A stretch of DNA of 64,000 bases, taken from the NCBI RefSeq assembly GCF_000420145.1, contig NZ_ATUJ01000003.1:124001-188000 (forward strand), written 5' to 3'. Below, piece after piece: positions 9,727 through 17,465 of the stretch. The notes beneath the pieces were generated by a model. It had not been told where the DNA came from and made no database searches. It saw only the letters and a program-made list of their open reading frames with translations. This DNA comes from Paracoccus zeaxanthinifaciens ATCC 21588. Its GTDB lineage: Bacteria; Pseudomonadota; Alphaproteobacteria; Rhodobacterales; Rhodobacteraceae. The translations under genes were made by a program, and so were the position numbers. Position 1 is the first letter of the stretch, and the number at the start of each line of letters is the position of its first letter.

Positions 9727-10209
9727 ATGGCCCGTGCTGGGATCGATTATGGCGGAATGATGCATCGGGCGATGCAGGGTTTGATCGCCGAGGTGCTGCG
9801 CAAGATCGCGGATGAGGGGCTGCCAGGCGACCACCACTTCTTCATCACCTTCGACACCCGCGACGAGGGCGTCGAGATGGCCGACTGGCTGCGCCAGCGC
9901 TATCCCGAGGAAATGACGATCGTCATCCAGCACTGGTTCGACAACCTCGTGATCGAGGACGATCATTTCACCATCACGCTGAACTTCGGCAACCAGCCCG
10001 AGCCGTTGGTCATCCCCTTCGACGCGCTGCGCACCTTCGTGGACCCCTCGGTCGAGTTCGGCCTGCGATTCGAGACGCAGGACGATGACGACGACGAGGA
10101 GGACGAGGAAGAGGACGCCGAGTTCGAGCTGGACGCCGAGGATGACGGCGACGACACGCCCCCTTCGGGCGGCGGAGAGGTCGTGCGCCTGGACCGCTGG
10201 CGCAAGTGA
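9727..10209 (+). CDS. sspB: ClpXP adaptor SspB, alphaproteobacterial type
   Basis: Adaptor that binds ssrA-tagged proteins and tethers them to ClpX for degradation by ClpXP. The 160-residue protein has a substrate-binding domain (residues about 1-115, with IDYGGMMHRAMQGLIAEVL and HHFFITFDTRDEGVEM). A strongly acidic linker follows (about 118-145, almost only Asp and Glu). The C-terminal VVRLDRWRK fits the ClpX-binding XB module of alpha-type SspB. Its gene follows the tmRNA gene by about 100 bases, so adaptor and tag RNA are neighbours. AAAGGTG is the ribosome site. Its stop overlaps the start of the following DapA-like gene by one base (TGATG). Confidence 0.92.
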   Translation: MARAGIDYGGMMHRAMQGLIAEVLRKIADEGLPGDHHFFITFDTRDEGVEMADWLRQRYPEEMTIVIQHWFDNLVIEDDHFTITLNFGNQPEPLVIPFDALRTFVDPSVEFGLRFETQDDDDDEEDEEEDAEFELDAEDDGDDTPPSGGGEVVRLDRWRK

Positions 10210-11087
10210 TGTCGATGCGGGGTCTCAGCGGGTTTCCGATCACGCCGACCGACCCCGATGGCGATCCCGTCCCCGGTGCCGTCGCGCCCCTGATCCGCCG
10301 CATGGCGGATGCGGGGCTGGACAGCGCGGGCGTGCTGGGATCGACCGGCGGATATGCCTATCTGACCGAGGCGCAGCGCAAGGACGTGCTGACCGAGGCG
10401 CTGGACGCCGCGGGTGACCGCATTCCCGTGATCGCCGGCATCGGCGCATTGCGGGCCGACATGGCCGCGCGGCTGGCGCGTCACGCGGCGGACAGCGGTG
10501 CGGCGGGCCTGCTGCTGGCGCCCATGTCCTATGCCCCCCTGTTCGAGGACGAGGTGTTCGACCTGTTCGCCCGCGTGGCGGATGCCTCGGACCTGCCGAT
10601 CTGCATCTACAACAACCCCTCGACCACGCATTTCACCTTCTCGACGGCGCTGCTGGCGCGGCTGGCGACCATCCCGACCGTCACGGCGGTCAAGATGCCC
10701 TTGCTGGGCGACGCGTCCGAGGTTGCGGCCCTGCGCGCCGCCATGCCCGAAGGTTTCCTCATAGGCTACAGCGCGGATTGGGGCTGTCCGGCGGCACTGC
10801 TGGCGGGGGCCGATACCTGGTACAGCGTCGCGGGCGGCATGTGGCCCGCGCAGACGCTGGAACTGGCGCGCGCCGCGCAGGCGGGCGACCGGGCGCGCGT
10901 CGCCGAACTGGACCGCCGGTTCGAACCGATCTGGGACCTGTTCCGCCGCTTCGGGGGATTTCGCACCTGCCACGCGGCCTCGGGCCCGATGGGGCTGACG
11001 CCCAGCCGCCCGCCCGCGCCGCTGCGCCCCCTGCCCGATGACGCGATGGCCACGCTGCTGGCCGCGATCGAGGCGCTTCAAGACTGA
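10209..11087 (+). CDS. Dihydrodipicolinate synthase (DapA) family aldolase, substrate unknown
   Basis: A 292-residue class I aldolase/lyase of the DapA superfamily (TIM barrel). The Schiff-base lysine sits in TAVKMPLLGD (about residue 161) and the supporting tyrosine in ICIYNNPSTT (about 134). The motif that is usually GTTGE near residue 40 reads GSTGGYAYL, so the conserved Glu is missing. True DapA is therefore doubtful and another pyruvate- or keto-acid-dependent lyase is likely. The ATG overlaps the sspB stop by one base, implying translational coupling; a GTG at 10206 is an alternative. The C-terminus (PSRPPAPLRPLPDDAMATLL) resembles the tail of DapA-like proteins. Confidence 0.85.
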   Translation: MSMRGLSGFPITPTDPDGDPVPGAVAPLIRRMADAGLDSAGVLGSTGGYAYLTEAQRKDVLTEALDAAGDRIPVIAGIGALRADMAARLARHAADSGAAGLLLAPMSYAPLFEDEVFDLFARVADASDLPICIYNNPSTTHFTFSTALLARLATIPTVTAVKMPLLGDASEVAALRAAMPEGFLIGYSADWGCPAALLAGADTWYSVAGGMWPAQTLELARAAQAGDRARVAELDRRFEPIWDLFRRFGGFRTCHAASGPMGLTPSRPPAPLRPLPDDAMATLLAAIEALQD

Positions 11088-11183
11088 TCTGCTGGCGCTA
11101 TCATCCGGCATGCAATCGCATACGAATTGCGCTGCCGATCCCGCGCGGGTAAAACCCCCGCGAAACGCCAAGGGAGCCTTCGC

Positions 11184-12578
11184 ATGACCGATACCCGCAC
11201 CGAGACCGACAGCTTCGGCCCGCTGGAGGTTGACGCCTCGAAATACTGGGGCGCGCAGACGCAGCGTTCCATCATGAACTTCCCCATCGGCTGGGAACGC
11301 CAGCCCGTCCCGATGATCCGTGCGCTTGGCGCGATCAAGCTGGCCGCCGCCCGCGTGAACCGCGACAATGGCGATCTGGCCGCCGATCTGGCAGCCGCCA
11401 TGGAACAGGCCGCGACCGAGGTCTTCGAGGGCAAGTTCGACGACAACTTCCCGCTGGTCGTCTGGCAGACGGGTTCGGGCACGCAGTCGAACATGAACGC
11501 CAACGAGGTGATCTCGAACCGCGCGATCGAGATCATGGGCGGCGAGAAGGGCAGCAAGAAGCCCGTCCACCCCAACGATCACTGCAACATGGGGCAATCC
11601 TCGAACGACACCTTCCCGACCGCGATGCATGTGGCCATCGCCATGCAGGCGCGCGACGTGCTGCTGCCGGGCCTGGACAAGCTGGCATCCGCGCTGGAGG
11701 CCAAGTCGGACGAGTTCAAGGACATCATCAAGATCGGCCGCACCCATACGCAGGATGCGACGCCGCTGACGCTTGGCCAGGAATTCGGCGGCTATGCCCA
11801 CCAGGTCCGCAAGGGGATCGAGCGGGTGAAGGCCTGCCTGCCCGACATTTACGAACTGGCGCAGGGCGGCACCGCCGTCGGCACCGGCCTGAACACCAAG
11901 AAGGGCTGGGACACGGCCATCGCGGCCGAGATCGCCAAGATCACCGACCTGCCCTTCGTCACCGCCCCCAACAAGTTTGAGGCGCTGGCCGCCCATGACG
12001 CGATGGTCATGTTCTCGGGCGCGCTCAAGACGGTCGCGGCCTCGCTGTTCAAGATCGCCAACGACATGCGCCTTCTGGGTTCCGGCCCGCGTTCGGGCCT
12101 GGGCGAGCTGATCCTGCCGGAAAACGAGCCGGGCAGCAGCATCATGCCGGGCAAGGTGAACCCCACCCAGGCCGAGGCGCTGACCATGGTCTGCGCGCAT
12201 GTCATGGGCAACGACGCCGCCGTCGGCTTTGCCGGATCGCAGGGCCATTTCGAACTGAACGTCTACAACCCGATGATGTCCTACAACGTGCTGCAGTCGA
12301 TGCAGCTTCTGGGCGACGCGGCCAGCAGCTTCACCGACAACATGGTCGTGGGCACCACCGCCAATGTCGAACGCATCGAGAAGCTGATGAAGGAATCGCT
12401 GATGCTGGTCACGGCGCTGGCCCCCACCATCGGCTATGACAACGCCACCAAGGTCGCCAAGACCGCGCACAAGAACGGCACGACCCTGCGCGAAGAGGCG
12501 ATCGCACTGGGCTTCGTCGATGGCGAGACCTTCGACCGCATCGTCCGCCCCGAGGACATGATCGGCCCCAAGGGCTGA
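11184..12578 (+). CDS. fumC: Fumarate hydratase, class II
   Basis: Reversible hydration of fumarate to L-malate in the TCA cycle; iron-independent, oxygen-stable tetramer. The 464-residue length is standard for FumC. The signature [15 protein letters not shown] (about residues 315-329) carries the catalytic serine loop, with [17 protein letters not shown] near 185 and [16 protein letters not shown] near 97. The start at 11184 is supported by AAGGGAG eight bases upstream. It is monocistronic, ending in a hairpin at 12620-12648. Confidence 0.97.
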
Positions 12579-12619
12579 TCCCGACCGGCCCATGACGGGC
12601 CACTTGACGATGGACCACC

Positions 12620-12648
12620 GGGGCGCGCTATGCTTGGCGCGCCCCTTT
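12620..12648 (+). terminator. Terminator after fumC
   Basis: GGGGCGCGC / GCGCGCCCC stem with an 8-base loop and TTT. The same bases also hold TATGCT (12629-12634), 19 bases after TTGACG (12604-12609), a possible promoter for the next gene, so terminator and promoter may overlap. Confidence 0.65.
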
Positions 12649-12663
12649 CCCATTCCGGACCCC

Positions 12664-12852
12664 ATGACCCGCATCATCAACCTGCGACAGGCCCGCAAAT
12701 CCCGCGACCGCGACGCCAAACGCGCCGAGGGCGACCGCAACGCCGCCCGCTTTGGCGAACCCAAGCACCTGCGCGATGCCCGCGAGGCCGAAGAGACCCG
12801 CATCCGCAGCCTTTGGGACGCGCATCGCAAGGATGACTGCGCGGATGATTGA
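12664..12852 (+). CDS. DUF4169 small basic protein
   Basis: A 62-residue, highly charged cytoplasmic protein starting MTRIINLRQARKSRDRDAKR, the hallmark of the uncharacterised DUF4169 family found in Rhodobacterales and relatives. It is rich in Arg, Lys, Asp and Glu and probably a single helix. The function is unknown. Its last eight bases overlap the start of the ribbon-helix-helix gene that follows, an arrangement that implies coupled translation and suggests that the two products act together. Confidence 0.75.
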   Translation: MTRIINLRQARKSRDRDAKRAEGDRNAARFGEPKHLRDAREAEETRIRSLWDAHRKDDCADD

Positions 12853-13983: not shown

Positions 13984-14859
13984 TCAGCCCTTCGGATCGG
14001 CCAGCCGCGCGATCAGTGCCGAGGTGTCCCAACGCCCGCCGCCCATGCGCTGGACATCCTTGTAGAACTGATCGACCAGCGCGGTCACCGGCAGGGGCGC
14101 GCCCAGCTCGTCGCCGGTCTTCAGGCAGATGCCCAGATCCTTGCGCATCCAGTCGATCGCGAAGCCGAAATCGAATTCCCCCTTGGCCATGGTCTGGTGG
14201 CGGTTCTGCATCTGCCAGCTTCCGGCGGCGCCCTGGCTGATCACCTCGACCACCTTCTCAACGTCGAGGCCCGCCGTCTGCGCGAAGTTCAGCGATTCCG
14301 ACAGCGCCTGCACCAGCCCCGCAATGGCGATCTGGTTGCACATCTTGGTCATCTGGCCCGCGCCGACCTCGCCCAGACGGCGGCAGATCTTGGCATAGGC
14401 GTCCATCACCGGCTCGGCCCGGTCGTATTCGCGCTGATCGCCGCCGCACATCACCGACAGCTGGCCGTTCTCGGCGCCCGCCTGCCCGCCCGACACCGGC
14501 GCATCGACATAGCCGATCCCGGCCTCGCGCGCGGCGGCGGCCAGTTCGCGCGTCACCTCGGCGGAAACCGTGGTGTGATCGACGAAGATGCTGCCCGCAG
14601 ACATGCCCGCAAAGGCACCGTCGGGACCAAGGCAGACCGCGCGCAGATCGTCGTCATTGCCCACGCAGGCCATCACGAATTCCGCGCCCGACGCGGCCTC
14701 GCGCGGGGTCGCGGCGTGGCGTCCGCCATGCTGTCCCGCCCAGGCTTCGGCCTTGGCTGACGTGCGGTTGTAGACGGTCACGTCATGTCCCGCGGCGGCC
14801 AGATGCCCCGCCATCGGAAAGCCCATCACGCCCAATCCCAGAAATGCCGTCTTAGCCAT
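13984..14859 (-). CDS. NAD(P)-dependent beta-hydroxyacid dehydrogenase (HIBADH/GarR family)
   Basis: A 291-residue member of the 3-hydroxyisobutyrate / tartronate semialdehyde reductase family. The Rossmann motif FLGLGVMGFPMAGHLAAAGH occupies residues 5-24. The substrate motif DAPVSGGQAGAENGQLSVMC begins near residue 119. The catalytic lysine is in GQMTKMCNQIAIAG (about 172). No valine-degradation or glyoxylate genes adjoin it, so the exact substrate is unresolved. GGGGGA precedes the ATG. The divergent neighbour is the penicillin-acylase homologue. Confidence 0.88.
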   Translation of the reverse strand: MAKTAFLGLGVMGFPMAGHLAAAGHDVTVYNRTSAKAEAWAGQHGGRHAATPREAASGAEFVMACVGNDDDLRAVCLGPDGAFAGMSAGSIFVDHTTVSAEVTRELAAAAREAGIGYVDAPVSGGQAGAENGQLSVMCGGDQREYDRAEPVMDAYAKICRRLGEVGAGQMTKMCNQIAIAGLVQALSESLNFAQTAGLDVEKVVEVISQGAAGSWQMQNRHQTMAKGEFDFGFAIDWMRKDLGICLKTGDELGAPLPVTALVDQFYKDVQRMGGGRWDTSALIARLADPKG

Positions 14860-14995
14860 ACGTCCCCCATGTCGGATAAGTGCCTGTCGCCTTGCGTTGA
14901 AATGCCCGCGCGGCTGTCCTATGCAGCACACCACCACCCATGCGCGACGGGGTCAAGAGACACCGGCCGTGCCAGATCCGAGGATCGCGCCCCGC

Positions 14996-17413
14996 ATGCT
15001 TACCGTGTTCCGTTGGCTTCTGAGGCTGACAGTCGGCCTGATCGTCCTTGCGGTCGTGGCTGCGCTTCTGACCTGGTATTTCGCCGTCAGGTCCCTGCCC
15101 GATTACGACGCCTCGTACCGGGTCGAGGGGATATCCGCCCCGGTCGAGATCGTCCGCTCGACCGAGAACGTGCCCCATATCTTCGGCAAGACGGATGCCG
15201 ACGTGTTCTTCGCCCTGGGGCTTGCCCACGCGCAGGATCGCCTGTTCCAGATGACGATGCTGCGCCGCGCAGCCCAAGGCCGCCTCGCCGAGGTGATGGG
15301 CCCGCAGGCCCTGTCCGCCGACGACCTTGCGCGCAGGCTCGGGCTCTATCGCAACGCGCAGGCATCGCTGGCGTCGCAGGACCAGCCCACCCGCGAGGCG
15401 CTGAACGCCTATGCCGCCGGGGTGAACCAGTGGATCGGCATCGTGAACGACGGGGCGATGGGGCGCGGCGCGCCGGAATTCTTCCTGTTCCCGGATGTCA
15501 TCACCTATTGGACGCCGACCGATTCCCTCGCGATCCTCAAGCTGATGGCCGCAGGCGCGACGGGTGCCGCCACCGACGAGATCATGCGCGCCCGCCTGTC
15601 GCTGGCCGATGCAGAGCACGGGATCGAGATCGCGGCGCGTCCGGGCATCCCTGCCGACCTTCCGGCCTATGCCTCGCTGTTCCCGAACGCGCGCCTGGGC
15701 GTTCCCGAACGCCGCACCGGCCCGCAGGACACCCCCGAGGCGATGGGCTATCTTGCGCCCGGCCCGCAGCTGGGCGGCAATGCCTTCGGCGCCGCGCCCG
15801 ACCGCACGGCGGCGGACGGCACGCTGCTGGCGGTCGACCTGCACAGCAGCCTGACCGCGCCGTCGCTCTATTATCTTGCGCGGTTGCAGCTGCAGGAAGG
15901 CGGCGTGATCGGCGCGACGATTCCGGGCATGCCGGTGATCTTCGCGGGCCGCAGCCCTTCGCTGTCCTGGTCGCTGTCGCCCGCTGCGGTCGACGATGCG
16001 GATATCGCGATCGAGGAGGTCCAGCCCGGCAACAGCGACCGCTACCGCGGCATCGGCGGCTGGACGGGGTTCGACACCCGGTCCGAGACGATCCGCGTGC
16101 TGGACGATGCGCCGCGCACCATCACCCTGCGCGAAACCGCGAACGGCCCCGTGGTGCCCAGCCTTGCCCCCGGCCTGCGCGACGTGACGCCCATCGGCCA
16201 TGTCCCCGCCCTGCGCTGGACGGGCCTGTCGCGCAAGGATGCCAGCATGTCCGCCCTGATCGGCGTGATGCGCGCCCCCGATGTCGCCGCCGCGACCGAG
16301 GCATTGGGCCACATGACCGCCCCCGCGCTGAACGCGATGCTGGCCGACCGGGAGGGCGTGACGCATCTTATGGCCGGCGCGATGCCCGAACGGGCCGAGG
16401 ATCACCCGACCGCAGGCGCGATGCCCAGCCCCGGCTGGCTGCCGCAGGCCGCATGGCGCGGCGTCCTTGCCCTGTCGCGCAACCCCATCGAGGGTCGCGA
16501 CGGCGTCAGCATCGCCACCGAGGAACCGGGACGTTCGGCCATGCGCCACACCCGCCTGACCCGCCTGTTGCAGGACCGCGACATCCATTCGCGCGACAGC
16601 TTCATCGCGGCGCAGCTGGACATCGTCAGCCCCGCCGCCCGCACCCTGCTGCCGCTGGTGGGCGCGGACCTGTGGTTCACCGACGATCCCGCAGCCCCCG
16701 GCACGCCCGAACGCCAGCGCCAGGACGCGCTTGCCCTGCTGGCCGAATGGGACGGCTCCATGAGCGAGCACCTGCCCGAGCCGCTGATCTATTCGGCATG
16801 GATGGCCGCGCTGCAGGACCGCCTGATCCGGGACGAGATCGGTCCCCTGGCCGACGACCTGTTCCGCCTCCAGCCGAACTTCATCGATGCCGTCTATCGC
16901 AACCGCATGGGCGCGTCGCGCTGGTGCGACATCGTCCAAAGCGCCGTCACCGAGGATTGCACCACCATCGCCCGGCAGGCGCTGGACCGCGCGATCCTGG
17001 ACCTTGCCGCGCGTTTCGGTCCCGATGTCGAAAGCTGGCGTTGGGGCGATCAGCACCAGGCGCGGCACATCCATCCGGGCCTCGGCGCGGTGCCTGCGCT
17101 CGGCTGGATCGTGAATATCAACCAATCCGTGTCCGGCGGCGATTTCACCGTGGCACGTTCCGCGACCAAGGGCCGCGGCGACGATCCGTTCCTGGCGCGT
17201 GACGGCGCGGGGTTCCGGGGCGTGTTCGATCTGGCCGATCCCGACAGCTCGGTCTTCGTGACCTCGACGGGGCAATCGGGCCATCCGCTGTCGCGGCATT
17301 ACGACGACCTGTCGGGCCTGTGGCGCCGGGGCGAATACGTCACCATGTCGCTGGACCCCGAACTGGCGCGGGCGGCCGCCACGGGCATCACCACGCTGAC
17401 GCCCAAGCCCTGA
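14996..17413 (+). CDS. Membrane-anchored penicillin acylase family protein, probable pseudoenzyme
   Basis: An 805-residue homologue of the Ntn-hydrolases that include penicillin and acyl-homoserine-lactone acylases. An N-terminal hydrophobic helix (residues about 10-32) should anchor it to the inner membrane facing the periplasm. Family blocks are clear: NVPHIFGKTDADVFFALGLA and HAQDRLFQMTMLRR. At the expected autoprocessing site, where the nucleophile Ser-Asn is normally found, the sequence is GGNAF: Gly260-Gly261-Asn262. The oxyanion-hole segment usually read as Ala-Asn-Asn is ATEEP (507-511). Both catalytic elements thus look lost, although the frame is intact and full length. The start at 14996 is chosen by the anchor; a GTG at 14969 is possible. 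A strong terminator follows. Confidence 0.82.
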   Translation: MLTVFRWLLRLTVGLIVLAVVAALLTWYFAVRSLPDYDASYRVEGISAPVEIVRSTENVPHIFGKTDADVFFALGLAHAQDRLFQMTMLRRAAQGRLAEVMGPQALSADDLARRLGLYRNAQASLASQDQPTREALNAYAAGVNQWIGIVNDGAMGRGAPEFFLFPDVITYWTPTDSLAILKLMAAGATGAATDEIMRARLSLADAEHGIEIAARPGIPADLPAYASLFPNARLGVPERRTGPQDTPEAMGYLAPGPQLGGNAFGAAPDRTAADGTLLAVDLHSSLTAPSLYYLARLQLQEGGVIGATIPGMPVIFAGRSPSLSWSLSPAAVDDADIAIEEVQPGNSDRYRGIGGWTGFDTRSETIRVLDDAPRTITLRETANGPVVPSLAPGLRDVTPIGHVPALRWTGLSRKDASMSALIGVMRAPDVAAATEALGHMTAPALNAMLADREGVTHLMAGAMPERAEDHPTAGAMPSPGWLPQAAWRGVLALSRNPIEGRDGVSIATEEPGRSAMRHTRLTRLLQDRDIHSRDSFIAAQLDIVSPAARTLLPLVGADLWFTDDPAAPGTPERQRQDALALLAEWDGSMSEHLPEPLIYSAWMAALQDRLIRDEIGPLADDLFRLQPNFIDAVYRNRMGASRWCDIVQSAVTEDCTTIARQALDRAILDLAARFGPDVESWRWGDQHQARHIHPGLGAVPALGWIVNINQSVSGGDFTVARSATKGRGDDPFLARDGAGFRGVFDLADPDSSVFVTSTGQSGHPLSRHYDDLSGLWRRGEYVTMSLDPELARAAATGITTLTPKP

Positions 17414-17418
17414 AAAGA

Positions 17419-17444
17419 AAACGGGGGCCGACCGGCCCCCGTTT
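17419..17444. terminator. Bidirectional terminator between acylase homologue and lpd
   Basis: Perfect 11-bp stem AAACGGGGGCC / GGCCCCCGTTT around GACC, between convergent genes and symmetrical in its A/T flanks. Confidence 0.92.
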
Positions 17445-17465
17445 CGCATTCACCCCCTGCGGCGA

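Follow-up and report, generated by a model that had tools for sequence, protein, structure and literature searches.

A penicillin-acylase homologue without its catalytic elements is retained across the genus Paracoccus and is probably a pseudoenzyme

RESULTS

The gene, its fold and its neighborhood

We analyzed a stretch of 64,000 nt from Paracoccus zeaxanthinifaciens ATCC 21588, which we refer to as the window. A reading of its letters alone (the original prediction) had described a penicillin-acylase homologue with an intact frame of 805 codons that keeps the other family blocks, and both points hold: the sequence at 14996–17413 on the plus strand translates into 805 residues followed by a stop codon, and the match to PF01804 (Penicil_amidase) covers residues 49–789 with 569.3 bits against a cut-off of 21.3, spanning positions 1–671 of the 675 in the profile. 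This protein is the sole PF01804 match in the genome. We observed that its AlphaFold2 model (mean pLDDT 87.9, pTM 0.90) has the four-layer Ntn fold common to the solved acylases, with 7ea4 being matched at a Z score of 44.5 and an rmsd of 2.8 over 700 residues. With the NCBIfam equivalog model for PvdQ (NF051460) the protein scores 25.6 bits, below the cut-off of 950 bits. Residues 2–33 (14999–15094, plus strand) form a helix in the model, whose hydrophobicity suggests that it acts as a signal anchor.

The divergent neighbor encodes a 3-hydroxyisobutyrate-dehydrogenase-like NAD(P) oxidoreductase (PF03446 and PF14833) at 13984–14937 on the minus strand; these coordinates are those of the listed open reading frame, and the true start probably lies further inside. 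About 40–45 bases upstream of 14996 we noticed the sequence GTCAA (TTGAC on the opposite strand), which by eye recurs in most of the Paracoccus and canonical (Ser- and Asn-bearing) loci viewed and might provide the dehydrogenase gene with its −35 box. Two long antisense open reading frames on the minus strand, at 14852–17449 (865 codons) and 9963–12830 (955 codons), overlie the acylase and neighboring genes and probably arise from codon usage at high G+C.

Catalytic elements of the window protein

In Ntn hydrolases of the penicillin-acylase type the nucleophile is the first residue of the beta chain, a Ser, Thr or Cys. According to excerpts of the respective papers, the oxyanion hole of penicillin G acylase (PGA) is built from the main chain of Ala-β69 and the side chain of Asn-β241 (PMC4069103), and that of PvdQ from Val-β70, Asn-β269 and His-β23 (PMC5474475). 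At the nucleophile site the original prediction had read Gly260-Gly261-Asn262 in place of Ser-Asn, and in the structural alignment of the predicted model residue 261 indeed superposes on the first residue of numerous mature beta chains of PGA, cephalosporin acylases and PvdQ. For the window protein a misplaced alignment of the nucleophile is ruled out by this match. The former nucleophile strand thus comprises residues 259–266 (LGGNAFGA; 15770–15793, plus strand), with the codon of Gly261 (15776–15778) at the β1 position. A Ser, Thr or Cys a few residues away would have spoken against the original prediction, and by eye there is none between residues 248 and 270, so the window protein has no displaced nucleophile.

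The segment of the oxyanion Asn reads ATEEP at residues 507–511 (16514–16528, plus strand), again as predicted, within GVSIATEEP at residues 503–511; Glu509 and Glu510 replace Asn-Asn, and the side chain of the oxyanion Asn is therefore absent. Glu509 stands at the position of the canonical Asn509, which we take to be PGA Asn-β241 from the N-x-N-N pattern and its spacing, counted partly in PGA numbering. A third loss had been missed. Residues 323–334 of the window protein read LSWSLSPAAVDD, and a gapless phmmer alignment of residues 304–329 to residues 44–69 of the chain of a solved PGA (7rep) places Pro329 (15980–15982, plus strand) on Ala69, the donor of the oxyanion backbone NH; a proline at this position has no NH to donate.

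Distribution of the loss

The orthologue is kept in 123 of the 125 Paracoccus genomes searched and in 112 of the 113 of good quality. We could read 117 of the 123 copies, the other six being split over contigs; 115 of them are full-length, while two frame-broken copies (L147 and L148) were read piecewise. Among the 115 full-length copies, 80 have Ala at position 261 and 35 have Gly; the residue is Ala or Gly in all 117, Ser being absent also from L147 and L148. Whether GGN is conserved in the clade was a question raised by the original prediction: Gly or Ala at 261 extends over the whole genus, but GGN itself is found in only part of it. Pro329 is present in 114 of the 115 full-length copies, with Ser as the exception in L115 and in the frame-broken L147. 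Position 509 is Gly in 65, Glu in 44, Asp in 5 and Ala in 2 of the 117 copies (no data for 1), and no Paracoccus copy with data at this position has Asn. The losses extend to P. denitrificans and P. pantotrophus, whose copies have neither the Ser nor the Asn. A frame error or sequencing artefact is ruled out by the agreement of the 115 intact full-length copies.

In a sampled search of the bacterial family an orthologue was found in 145 of 148 genera, Paracoccus counted. We read it from 142 of the 144 other matching genera, which together with named loci gave 201 distinct non-Paracoccus sequences, and observed Ser261 in 201 of 201 and Asn509 in 200 of 201. The absence of Ser261 in 117 of 117 Paracoccus copies versus 0 of 201 others is far beyond chance. 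The canonical acylase thus occurs in most genera of the family, nearly always as a single copy at this similarity. The sole exception at position 509, L342 (genome G077), keeps the Ser but reads VSQAW, with Gly-Gly instead of the oxyanion Asn-Asn, and possibly represents a second, independent loss under way. The frame-broken non-Paracoccus copy L203, counted outside the 201, is canonical at both sites. One record named ‘Paracoccus sp. IB05’ (L262) has a canonical acylase, branches with Gemmobacter-like rows and is probably misnamed.

Some Paracoccus species carry a hydroxyl residue next to the former nucleophile, which raises the question of a nucleophile shifted by one residue. Position 260 is Ser in 48 and Thr in 6 of the 117 copies, and the additional alignment column 259 of Paracoccus could reflect the insertion of one residue. 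However, 260 is Gly in 59 copies, the window protein among them, a side chain one residue further along the strand should face the other way, and the species with Ser or Thr at 260 are without the oxyanion residues as well. We therefore regard a shifted nucleophile as very improbable.

Thirteen Paracoccus orthologues (L134–L146) carry Pro/Ala-rich insertions in the loop that once held the oxyanion Asn, at about residues 503–524 of the window protein, and these proteins have a length of 835–937 residues compared to about 800–830. The gene is located on a replicon of 1.5–1.7 Mb, deposited as a plasmid, in three species: P. denitrificans, P. pantotrophus and P. ferrooxidans (L346, L347 and L348). 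Downstream of it the last of these has genes for a nucleoside hydrolase and bamA, where the window has lpd.

Evolutionary history of the locus

We calculated a FastTree phylogeny of 147 sequences from which the columns around the catalytic sites had been removed. All 115 Paracoccus rows lie beyond one branch with a support of 100 and a length of 0.38, and the nearest rows outside are canonical. Since one change suffices on this tree, we rejected several independent losses inside Paracoccus, and the sequences place the catalytic loss on the single stem branch of the genus. On this branch the Ser would have changed to Ala or Gly, the oxyanion Asn to Gly, Glu, Asp or Ala, and the backbone NH donor to Pro.

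Among the loci with flanking sequence, all 80 with Gly or Ala at 261 have the dehydrogenase-like neighbor, as do 103 of the 119 others, which include some short contigs and the frame-broken Paracoccus copy L148. From the conservation of this neighbor across both states it follows that the Paracoccus gene occupies the same locus and was inherited, not replaced.

Selection on the Paracoccus gene

The Paracoccus gene is under purifying selection: the median dN/dS is 0.126 in 38 non-overlapping close Paracoccus pairs compared to 0.106 in 18 canonical pairs. This bears on a decaying pseudogene, for which the frame breaks in L147 and L148 could be quoted. With the frame intact in 115 of 117 copies, a dN/dS of about 0.13 and retention in 123 of 125 genomes, decay is scarcely credible. 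Nor are broken frames confined to Paracoccus, since the non-Paracoccus copy L203 has one too.

We found 203 positions that are at least 95% conserved in the canonical orthologues, and 159 of them stay at that level in Paracoccus. Seven of the 203 (84, 214, 217, 260, 261, 509 and 510) keep the canonical residue in at most 5% of the Paracoccus copies. Regarding dN/dS by segment (omega), we observed 0.121 in Paracoccus versus 0.005 in canonical orthologues at residues 259–266 and 0.344 versus 0.118 at 486–525. The values are somewhat raised at 351–485 (0.211 versus 0.164) and 731–803 (0.061 versus 0.038) and equal at 51–200 and 526–700. The relaxation of constraint thus centers on the nucleophile strand and the oxyanion loop. 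At matched overall identity the segment 701–730 is less conserved in Paracoccus (0.47 versus 0.67), although its pooled omega intervals overlap with those of the canonical orthologues. The canonical His283 (200 of 201) is replaced by a mixture of Gln, His, Glu and Asp in Paracoccus, where positions 284 and 331 are variable as well.

The N-terminal helix is better conserved in Paracoccus than in the canonical orthologues. We considered a gained membrane function and dropped it: in codons 1–30 (14996–15085) the pooled dS of Paracoccus is also low, 0.211 or about half the 0.40–0.50 elsewhere in the gene, whereas the canonical orthologues show no such drop (0.537), and the omega of Paracoccus equals the canonical one. 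For this reason the conservation of the helix is not evidence at the protein level; the low dS rather hints at a signal at the DNA or RNA level.

These data also bear on a ligand-binding pseudoenzyme, in which the old acyl pocket would bind an N-acyl compound (an AHL or a lipid) uncleaved and serve as a sink, carrier or sensor. Such a role has a precedent in the inactive S1A/N269D PvdQ, which has its nucleophile and an oxyanion residue changed and by the title of the entry was crystallized with substrate bound (5ubk), and the fold and strand framework are kept in Paracoccus. However, the lining of the active site has lost constraint there (His283, 284 and 331), the 486–525 loop drifts and swells with the insertions seen in 13 copies, and the segment 701–730 loses identity, though without a clear difference in pooled omega. 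We consider ligand binding in the old pocket rather unlikely.

Consequences for annotation

In 94 of the 125 Paracoccus genomes searched this gene is the only PF01804 match. Paracoccus, the model species P. denitrificans included, has here a gene with the annotation of a penicillin acylase or amidase but with none of the catalytic elements. Predictions of quorum quenching or penicillin degradation from such annotation are therefore unsafe. The excerpted genome announcement of Paracoccus sp. JM45 attributes a ‘potential for AHL degradation’ to a penicillin amidase encoded on scaffold 1 (PMC6328668). We found the only PF01804 match of this strain on contig 1; at the three sites its locus (L206) has GGN, P and TEE. 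The published penicillin amidase is the Paracoccus pseudoenzyme gene. An earlier screen by the same group, again as excerpted, states that the anti-quorum activity of the supernatant withstood 1 h at 85°C (PMC6680641). Such heat stability does not point to an active acylase and fits a non-enzymatic cause. An excerpt of a further paper describes the degradation of penicillin G by a Paracoccus strain and discusses an acylase from earlier work, the gene not being named in that text (PMC8554860).

The main caution against calling the protein dead comes from MacQ. An excerpt of the MacQ study reports that the S210A variant, which is without the Ser nucleophile and stays uncleaved, degraded several AHLs although it was inactive on penicillin G (PMC5566955). 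The Paracoccus protein might by analogy be a slow hydrolase that follows a non-classical route. In contrast to Paracoccus, however, MacQ S210A keeps its oxyanion residues; all three catalytic elements are gone in Paracoccus (Pro329 in 114 of 115 copies, Asn509 in none), and the excerpted heat-stable supernatant activity (PMC6680641) belongs to a strain whose only PF01804 protein is the pseudoenzyme. A slow hydrolase is improbable, and the absence of amide hydrolysis in the Paracoccus protein is, given the MacQ report, predicted and not proven.

DISCUSSION

Taken together, our findings make it likely that the Paracoccus gene encodes a single-chain, membrane-anchored pseudoenzyme that is kept for a non-catalytic role. 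Evidence from sequence, clade, selection and structure thereby supports the pseudoenzyme that had been proposed from the letters alone. The core of this reading, namely no Ntn catalysis, no self-cleavage and a retained function, is highly probable. Because the nucleophile is absent, the protein should not cleave itself and would persist as one chain of ~85 kDa, anchored in the inner membrane with its fold in the periplasm. The retention across the genus and the purifying selection suggest a function independent of catalysis.

This function may rest on the fold and its surfaces, with the protein serving as a scaffold or as a partner to which a different envelope component binds. A function of fold and surface is favored because constraint has left the active site and not the rest of the fold, and a structural or partner-binding role is more likely than ligand binding because the old pocket (283, 284, 331 and the 486–525 loop) has lost conservation. 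Taken on its own, the scaffold or partner-binding role remains tentative, its chances falling somewhat short of even. It is conceivable, though on balance doubtful, that a second, non-catalytic role in the envelope predates Paracoccus, and that catalysis was then dropped and, with the nucleophile gone and Pro fixed at the oxyanion position, locked out while this role became the sole function. If this were true, Paracoccus would represent a natural separation-of-function mutant on the scale of a genus, in an enzyme kept by nearly all other sampled genera of the family. The clade offers a clean natural experiment on catalytic loss: should a gene that is retained nearly everywhere outlast its catalytic activity altogether, then there is a function in the acylase family apart from catalysis.

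What we describe is a variant within a known family, a pseudoenzyme, and not a new kind of system. In open-licence PMC full text we found no earlier description of such a penicillin-acylase or Ntn pseudoenzyme. The nearest relatives are the canonical orthologues of the bacterial family, which resemble the window protein in length, N-terminal helix and fold (best hits at roughly 35–59% identity) and share its divergent dehydrogenase neighbor, but keep GASN...TNN and a residue other than Pro at 329. The closest solved structure is the D-succinylase of Cupriavidus sp. P4-10-C (7ea4 and 7eby; Z score 44.5 over 700 residues, 27% identity), whose beta chain begins with Ser-Asn and which has an N-x-N-N oxyanion segment, whereas the window protein has neither. 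PvdQ and MacQ show the same fold (Z scores of 24–34) but are active AHL acylases with the full catalytic set. The PGA mutant S1G (4pem, by its title) has Gly at β1 as in the window protein but is an engineered single change, presumably with Ala69 and Asn241 kept, and the laboratory-made inactive PvdQ S1A/N269D (5ubk) parallels the changes that occurred naturally in Paracoccus.
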